A DNA stretch of 64,000 nt, from the NCBI RefSeq assembly GCF_001190925.1, contig NZ_CP011072.1, forward strand, positions 3,348,001 through 3,412,000, read 5' to 3'. The position numbers and the translations under genes are program-made. The notes under the pieces are model-generated. The model was not told where the DNA came from, made no database searches, and worked only from the letters and a program-made list of their open reading frames with translations. Numbering within the stretch: position 1 is the first letter of the stretch; each line of letters starts with the position of its first letter. Source of the DNA: Azoarcus sp. CIB. Lineage in GTDB: Bacteria > Pseudomonadota > Gammaproteobacteria > Burkholderiales > Rhodocyclaceae. Of this stretch, positions 37,090 to 38,214 are shown piece by piece.

Positions 37090-37116
37090 TGAAGTTTTTC
37101 CGAAATCTGCCGTTAA
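37090..37116 (+). promoter_or_regulatory. Sigma-28 (FliA) flagellar-type promoter
   Basis: TGAAGTTT (37090-37097), exactly 11 bases, then GCCGTTAA (37109-37116), against the sigma-28 consensus TAAAGTTT-N11-GCCGATAA: 14 of 16 positions at the right spacing. It lies in the 200-base hemH gap and would start transcription about 25-30 bases before the ATG at 37150. The rest of the gap is GC-rich, with no other gene I can support. Confidence 0.7.
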
Positions 37117-37149
37117 AACCTGCGCTTGAGTGGGTCGCAGGGAACCGTC

Positions 37150-38214
37150 ATGAAAATTGCATCGGCAGACATTCAGCTTCAGGCTTCGCACCTATCCTTC
37201 AGTCGCCGCGAGACCTCGGAGCGGCTCGAGATGTGGGTCGGCGAACGTCCCGCCAGCGCGGGGCGGAACAACGGCATCGGCGTCGCCGCAAGCGCGGGCG
37301 TGCGGCCCGAGGTGCAAATTTCCAGGGATGCCCTCGAGGCCCAGGAGGCCGAGGCTGCGGAGAACGATTCCGGGGAAGACGGCCTCGACCCGCGATTCCG
37401 CTTCCTCAAGCACCTGATCGAGGCACTGACGGGGCGCGCGATCCACACCCTGCAGTCAAGCGATTTCCACGCTGATCAGGCTGCAGCGGCAGTCATCGAG
37501 CAGCCGCCCGCCGAAGGCCGCCGCGCGGACGCCCCGCGACGCGCGGGATTCGGCATCGAGTACGACTTTCGCTCGGTGTCTCAGGAATACGAATACACGA
37601 GCTTCGAAGCCGCGGGCGTTGTCAGGACCACTGACGGCCAGGAAATCCGCTTCAATCTGGAACTGGAGATGGAACGCGCGTATGCCGAAACCTCGAACGT
37701 CCAGGTGCGTCTTGGCGATGCGCGCGTGAAGGACCCGCTGGTGCTCGATTTTGCCGGCACGTCCGCCCAGCTTTCAGACGTGCGTTTCGCCTTTGACCTC
37801 GATGCCGACGGCAAGACCGAAGACGTGCCGATGCTTGGCGGTGGTCGCGGCTACCTCGCCATTGACCGCAATCTGAACGGCCGCATCGACGACGGCGCCG
37901 AACTTTTCGGGCCGACAACCGGCGACGGCTTCGCCGAACTGGCAGCGCTCGATACCGACGGCAGCGGCTGGATCGACGAAGCCGACGCGAAATTTGCCGA
38001 TCTCCGCATCTGGACCCCGACTGCCGACGGCGCCGGCAGCGTCGTGACGGCGTCGGAAGCCGCCGTCGGCGCACTCTACCTGGGGAGGGTCGCCACGCCG
38101 TTCGAGTTGCGCGGAGCAGCGAACGACACGCTTGGCGTGATGCGCTCCACCAGCATCTATCTGCGGGAGGACGGCACCACCGGTACCGTCAGCCAGGTCG
38201 ACCTGAGCATATAG
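37150..38214 (+). CDS. Protein with EF-hand/VCBS-like calcium loops, probable sigma-28 regulon member
   Basis: A 354-residue protein of unknown function. Residues 1-35 (MKIASADIQLQASHLSFSRR, then SERLEMWVGERP) resemble the start of uncharacterised proteobacterial proteins I recall. A charged, low-complexity stretch covers 40-130. Three Asp-rich loops follow: FDLDADGK (215-222), IDRNLNGRIDDGAELFG (238-254) and LDTDGSGWIDEADAKFADL (267-285). The last has D268, D270, S272, W274, D276 and D279, an EF-hand-like spacing. No signal peptide or membrane helix is seen. The start at 37150 is preferred over one eight codons upstream: it sits behind AGGGA, and the upstream ATG lies at the expected transcription start. 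Calcium binding is inferred. Confidence 0.75.
   Translation: MKIASADIQLQASHLSFSRRETSERLEMWVGERPASAGRNNGIGVAASAGVRPEVQISRDALEAQEAEAAENDSGEDGLDPRFRFLKHLIEALTGRAIHTLQSSDFHADQAAAAVIEQPPAEGRRADAPRRAGFGIEYDFRSVSQEYEYTSFEAAGVVRTTDGQEIRFNLELEMERAYAETSNVQVRLGDARVKDPLVLDFAGTSAQLSDVRFAFDLDADGKTEDVPMLGGGRGYLAIDRNLNGRIDDGAELFGPTTGDGFAELAALDTDGSGWIDEADAKFADLRIWTPTADGAGSVVTASEAAVGALYLGRVATPFELRGAANDTLGVMRSTSIYLREDGTTGTVSQVDLSI

Follow-up and report, generated by a model that had tools for sequence, protein, structure and literature searches.

The window analysed here, a stretch of 64,000 nucleotides from the soil bacterium Azoarcus sp. CIB (contig NZ_CP011072.1, positions 3,348,001 to 3,412,000), carries at 37150..38214 a coding sequence for a stand-alone protein of 354 amino acids (ATG at 37150, stop codon ending at 38214), and a FliA (sigma-28) type promoter lies before it at 37090..37116. 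Positions are those of the window, and all features described are on the + strand. With a domain like the self-processing module (SPM) of the Neisseria meningitidis protein FrpC at its C-terminus, the gene suggests a known SPM chemistry set in a new, small, flagellum-linked architecture. An alternative TTG start lies upstream at 37126, and the protein starts at the ATG position in 9/9 aligned relatives. The gene's profile matches once in the genome, a single contig of 5,257,030 bases; the strains near to it in the genome collection belong to Azoarcus and Aromatoleum.

Promoter conservation and co-distribution with flagella

The −35 half of the box (TGAAGTTT, 37090-37097) and its −10 half (GCCGTTAA, 37109-37116) are separated by an 11-base spacer and together match 14 of the 16 positions of the FliA consensus, TAAAGTTT-N11-GCCGATAA. 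The same consensus was used in an earlier note, made from the sequence alone, which had reported a 14/16 match at exact spacing about 34 bases before the ATG; a direct count at 37090-37116 bears this out, with a measured gap of 33 bases to the ATG at 37150. The 37090 box is the sole site in the window that scores at least 13 on either strand, and 20 Markov copies of the window hold a mean of 0.1 sites scoring at least 13 and none scoring at least 14. Across the genome, the pattern TMAAGNNT-N11-GCCGWTAA with at most one mismatch has six sites versus one for a reversed-pattern control; among them are the 37090 box, a site 90 bases ahead of a flagellin start and one 203 bases ahead of the probable flgA start, and three of the six carry no gene assignment. 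The pattern TMAAGTTT-N11-GCCGTTAA with at most two mismatches has seven sites versus five in the control, so that weak matches, or a sequence match alone, carry little weight. One of these seven stands 33 bases before flgM, a spacing identical to that of the 37090 box. The identities of the flagellin, flgM and flgA genes behind the similar boxes come from Pfam. A genome without fliA, which the earlier note had named as speaking against its proposal, is ruled out, as fliA is present at 279.9 bits (cut-off 189.6).

The FliA promoter is accepted because the box is conserved across orthologues, and not on the sequence match alone. Boxes were scored in the 120 bases 5′ of the start codon in 90 orthologues (the window, L007-L014, L023-L036 and L054-L120; L052 and L053, being repeats of L010 and L011, were left out). 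Such conservation was the check proposed in the earlier note, and it was found: a box of at least 13/16 precedes 63 of the 90 orthologues versus 2 of 312 other long open reading frames (ORFs) at the same loci, and arises in 0.16% of shuffles. At 14/16 or better the counts are 45/90 and 1/312. Most boxes scoring at least 12 (56 of 74) begin 54-66 bases before the start codon. An order-level search added 21 further orthologues, 15 of them with a box of at least 13, and loci in genomes already used were left out of it (L174, L177, L183, L188, L190, L192 and L193). Two loci with incomplete ends, L033 and L036, are counted both in the 90 and in the resulting 111, and were left out of the alignment for structure prediction. 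Boxes are kept in loci with differing neighbours, such as L013 and L023/L141, and no box scoring at least 12 precedes the paralogues of the same bacterial family, whose start codons were checked (0/18). On these sequence comparisons the gene very probably belongs to the FliA regulon and is regulated by FliA.

The gene also keeps company with flagella. Among 199 genomes sampled from the bacterial family, 151 hold some match and 127 a strong one, defined as a best expectation value (E) of at most 1e-60, a threshold that mixes orthologues with paralogues and admits a few partial best matches (for example in G433 and G467). Each of the 127 strong carriers has at least one of fliA and flagellin, with fliA above the cut-off in 123. 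The other four (G374, G411, G458 and G461) were considered as counter-examples and rejected, as all four have flagellin; their fliA is probably absent through assembly gaps. A further 19 genomes of the sample have no fliA found, of which 17 also have no flagellin, and these 17 yield no strong match and a single weak one (G369). Set against one another, flagellar marker and strong match occur together in 127 genomes, the marker alone in 55, the match alone in 0 and neither in 17 (p = 8e-9). In an order-level sample of 399 genomes, where a strong carrier has a best E of at most 1e-50, fliA is present in 57/57 strong carriers versus 269/399 overall, and genomes whose matches are all weaker, most of them to the SPM portion of longer ORFs, lie near that background (29/39). 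In a class-level sample of 369 genomes the figures are 15/15 and 208/369; the three samples share some genomes. The gene thus resembles FliA regulon genes such as flagellin and flgM in its promoter type, found in the same genome, and in that every strong carrier in the three samples has a flagellar marker. Unlike flagellin and flgM, it is not a known flagellar part and is accessory, as the 55 flagellar-marker genomes without a strong match indicate, and it lies away from the flagellar genes found: the gene is at 3.385 Mb, those genes are at about 1.06-1.09 Mb, and fliA is at 3.99 Mb.

Several points weigh against this link to flagella. Besides the 55 genomes with a marker and no strong match, the box scores below 12 in 16 of the 90 orthologues and in 4 of the 21 further ones, and the chance comparisons, for both box and co-distribution, ignore genome relatedness. 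Among the weaker class-level matches, a short-form relative occurs in G221, where no fliA was found; that assembly is 82% complete and has flagellin. Another short form occurs in G034 (L040, L208), a complete genome in which neither fliA nor flagellin was detected, and the match has stop codons. These stop codons would fit decay after flagella loss, in this single case. The same short form retains a 14/16 box.

The C-terminal module and its Asp-Pro site

Searches of the 354-residue protein against Pfam and NCBIfam return nothing at E<=1, and hence no RTX repeat match. A full-length AlphaFold2 model built from 88 aligned sequences has a well-predicted C-terminal domain at residues 196-354 (37735..38211), with block means of the predicted local distance difference test (pLDDT) above 90 at 211-310, 78-88 beyond 310 and 68-75 at 191-210. 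When this part of the model is compared by Foldseek with solved structures, the only matches at E<=0.001 are the two FrpC SPM entries, 6sjx (1.6e-10) and 6sjw (1.8e-9), and the orthologue profile also finds the FrpC SPM chains by sequence (hmmsearch, best E 3.7e-16). Model and profile together make it near certain that the domain is a homologue of the FrpC-type SPM. In FrpC the module folds in response to calcium, the Asp414-Pro415 bond is cleaved, and the aspartyl anhydride so formed can link to a lysine (PMC7078468). The profile alignment puts Pro196 opposite FrpC Pro415, which is the first residue of the 6sjw chain and follows the cleaved bond (PMC7078468). Asp195-Pro196 (37732..37737) is thus the predicted self-cleavage site.

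The earlier note had counted three Asp-rich calcium-type loops, and all three are present. The first, at 216-227 (DLDADGKTEDVP; 37795..37830), has D216 and G221 in 111/111 orthologues, and its FrpC counterpart sits in a region described as flexible (PMC7078468). The other two are EF-hand-like: 239-251 (37864..37902; D239 in 111/111, E251 in 110/111) corresponds to FrpC D462-E474, and 268-279 (37951..37986; D268 in 111/111, D279 in 110/111) to FrpC D499-D511. Compared with the four calcium sites of FrpC, two loops are kept, one is degenerate and one is lost, and the Asp-rich stretch 216-227 is conserved instead. The note's idea of a calcium sensor is superseded, since the calcium domain is of the self-processing type with an Asp-Pro site. 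A plain EF-hand family was considered and rejected, given the empty Pfam and NCBIfam searches and an SPM match far stronger than that to lanmodulin.

At the predicted cleavage site, Asp195-Pro196 is present in 111/111 orthologues, in 18/18 paralogues and in 6/6 short stand-alone forms that span the site (L047, a short-form edge fragment, ends before it), so that every stand-alone SPM protein examined retains the Asp. By comparison, nine rows of SPM-like domains from other, mostly long ORFs at eight loci have Asp-Pro in three, Ser/Thr-Pro in five and Asp-Phe in one, a small set in which a single locus, with frames of about 400 amino acids, supplies two of the three Asp-Pro rows. The SPM fold thus seems to tolerate loss of the Asp, and some of the long-ORF domains may be without cleavage; that Asp195 is nevertheless invariant among the 111 orthologues suggests that selection keeps the Asp-Pro pair. 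Counterparts of FrpC L475, G477 and G491, which belong to the narrow-port residues lining the FrpC cleavage site (PMC7078468), are invariant in the 111, and that of W519 is W288 in 106/111. The C-terminal residues 351-354 (DLSI; 38200..38211), with D351 in 107/111 and L352 in 108/111, are the likely counterpart of FrpC D579-L582, an equivalence taken from position only as the profile alignment ends at residue 315; in FrpC, D579-L582 line the cleavage site (PMC7078468). Like the FrpC module, then, the protein has the fold, an Asp-Pro where the module begins, a pair of EF-hand-like loops, the counterparts of L475, G477, G491 and W519, and probably those of D579-L580 (FrpC features after PMC7078468). 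Calcium-dependent cleavage at Asp195-Pro196 is likely on this analogy. Residue 194, which immediately precedes the Asp of the predicted cut, is Lys in 88/111 orthologues.

The architecture differs from that of FrpC. SPM-bearing RTX exoproteins have more than 1,000 residues and RTX repeats, unlike this stand-alone protein of 354 amino acids, whose N-terminal part also differs from that of FrpC. The promoter here is of FliA type, whereas FrpC is described as iron-regulated (PMC7078468). Other stand-alone relatives fall into two groups. A paralogue clade from the same bacterial family (L153-L170, 18 loci once L171 and L172 had been moved out of an initial 20 as orthologues) is also stand-alone and SPM-like, and each member has two to seven cysteines, many of which fall in recurring columns. 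Short stand-alone forms (L037-L041 and L044) come from more distant genomes or other families and have a different N-terminus, with an Asp/Asn-rich stretch after the Asp-Pro and an ELFGD motif kept; a FliA-type box of at least 13 precedes three of the six. One short form lies near cheY-like and cheA genes. Many long ORFs with an SPM-like domain also appeared as weak matches in the class- and order-level searches, with open frames of up to 24255 amino acids at class level.

The N-terminal half, export and rival explanations

The N-terminal half has three parts. Residues 1-31 (37150..37242) form a conserved N-terminal strand with an E[SR]LxxWVG motif, predicted as a strand at 3-30. A variable, mostly disordered linker, for the most part of low pLDDT, follows at 32-131 (37243..37542), with predicted helices at 59-68 and 81-94 and low conservation at 32-57 and 97-131. 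Residues 132-194 (37543..37731) then form a long beta-hairpin with strands at 134-160 and 165-189. In an AlphaFold2 model of the N-terminal half alone (87 sequences), block means are 85-95 over 131-190, strand 3-30 reaches a pLDDT of about 90 (lower in the full-length model), and this strand and the hairpin strands are predicted to form a long beta sheet. The disordered N-terminal third of the earlier note therefore stands for about 31-133, which is mostly disordered, and falls for residues 3-30. Against solved structures, the N-terminal half gave no relative at E<=0.001 and generic long hairpins only.

Some traits of this half touch on export, indirectly. As the earlier note had held, no signal peptide of Sec type is apparent when the sequence is read by eye. 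Residues 16-31 have a mean conservation of 0.52 in FliA-type orthologues versus 0.25 in the L153-L170 paralogues, where this segment is poorly conserved; for the SPM half the two groups have about the same conservation. Residues 1-31 are accordingly a candidate export or targeting signal, as far as sequence can indicate. Cysteine is absent from 103/111 orthologues versus 6/89 ORFs of 250-450 amino acids from the neighbourhoods (called crudely, some of them doubtful) and 0/18 paralogues, and this near absence hints at an extracytoplasmic fate.

We consider the most probable reading, at roughly two in three, to be a FliA-driven stand-alone SPM protein that would be exported unfolded, folded by calcium outside the cell and self-cut there, leaving a reactive N-terminal fragment. 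Its promoter, co-distribution, SPM homology and invariant Asp-Pro pair are computed; calcium folding, cleavage and lysine linkage are carried over from FrpC; and the route and the target are hypothetical. In the low-calcium cytosol the SPM half would stay unfolded, suiting passage through a narrow secretion channel. Since the late flagellar sigma factor drives expression on this reading, the foremost candidate for the channel is the flagellar export apparatus. We would put flagellar export itself at somewhat under even odds. Outside, calcium would fold residues 196-354 and strain Asp195-Pro196 until the bond breaks, and the N-terminal 195 residues, with their long predicted strands and disordered loop, would be left with an aspartyl anhydride at their C-terminal end, able to react with lysines of a bound partner, such as a protein of the filament, envelope or matrix. 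That they become covalently linked to a target on the flagellum or a surface is a tentative extension by analogy. The fullest version, a flagellum-exported, calcium-triggered linker that covalently anchors its N-terminal beta sheet on the flagellum, on the cell surface or on a surface that the cell touches, is speculative and on balance unlikely.

The absence of several FrpC features weighs against self-cleavage. Of the FrpC calcium site D419/D421/D423, position 200 has N (80) or D (31) in the 111 orthologues, and positions 202 and 204 are mostly not D. The counterpart of D478, position 255, is P, A or T in 108/111; that of W451, position 228, has no W among its commonest residues; and the fourth loop, D521-E532 in FrpC, is degenerate. 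In FrpC, D478 and D579 are proposed to help form a fifth, bond-straining calcium site (PMC7078468). The module might therefore be slow or inactive, and the SPM-like domain could have lost its chemistry and act, stabilised by calcium, in a structural or sensing role within a flagellum-associated protein. Asp195 would then have stayed invariant in 111 orthologues where five of nine domains in other ORFs have Ser or Thr, which makes this improbable. The box-less paralogues bear on the flagellar side of the proposal, for all 18 keep the Asp-Pro and the chemistry is thus not specific to flagella. The described SPM proteins FrpC and ApxIVA are of the RTX class, which type I systems secrete (PMC7078468, PMC3034196), and the conserved C-terminus here could hold a type I signal, with only expression tied to FliA. 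Such a route is improbable: the protein has no RTX repeat match, the last strand of the SPM fold accounts well for its C-terminal residues, and inspection of the neighbours by eye or by cluster representative revealed no type I gene, with no scan run and no search of the genome for such genes. 

A protein that stays in the cytoplasm and modulates motility or chemotaxis in response to calcium would come close to the sensor of the earlier note. It would suit the FliA link, the EF-hand-like loops, weak profile matches to lanmodulin (E 0.19) and another EF-hand protein (E 0.24), and a chemoreceptor-like gene that in 24 of 90 loci comes immediately after this one, on the same strand (two loci hold too little DNA). 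Calcium binding by the FrpC SPM, given as about 150 µM, is far above bacterial cytosolic levels (PMC7078468), and the scarcity of cysteine points out of the cytoplasm, so that we see only an outside chance for it. That the promoter match is coincidental, as the two-mismatch pattern, hardly enriched genome-wide, might suggest, is very remote in view of the conservation among orthologues, the counts in Markov copies of the window, the box-less paralogues and the co-distribution with flagella. For the preferred reading, no description of an SPM tied to flagella was found in the open-access literature, where absence is weak evidence; a small SPM protein under the flagellar late sigma factor appears across many genomes with flagella. 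Should it be active, it would couple motility to the covalent attachment of proteins and give a natural setting in which to ask why SPMs exist; it would also supply diverse small SPMs for the FrpC/FrpA-based protein-ligation tools described in PMC7846742 and PMC12538545.

Gene neighbourhood

The gene lies between hemH and a kinase, as the earlier note had placed it; the neighbours are a ferrochelatase and a Ser/Thr kinase with a cNMP-binding (cyclic nucleotide) domain. The order in the window, hemH, the gene, kinase, grpE and dnaK, is common in the bacterial family and not universal. Neighbourhood genes come from a crude caller that sometimes took antisense ORFs; with this caller the target was placed in 24 of 29 neighbourhoods. 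A dnaK-cluster gene lies at most four genes away in 14 of them, and one of the hemH cluster does so in nine. The single representative of the chemoreceptor-like genes that was scanned has MCPsignal and HAMP domains, and one example lies at L149:8940-10556. A CxxCH motif in the copy at L150 suggests a haem-binding sensor part.
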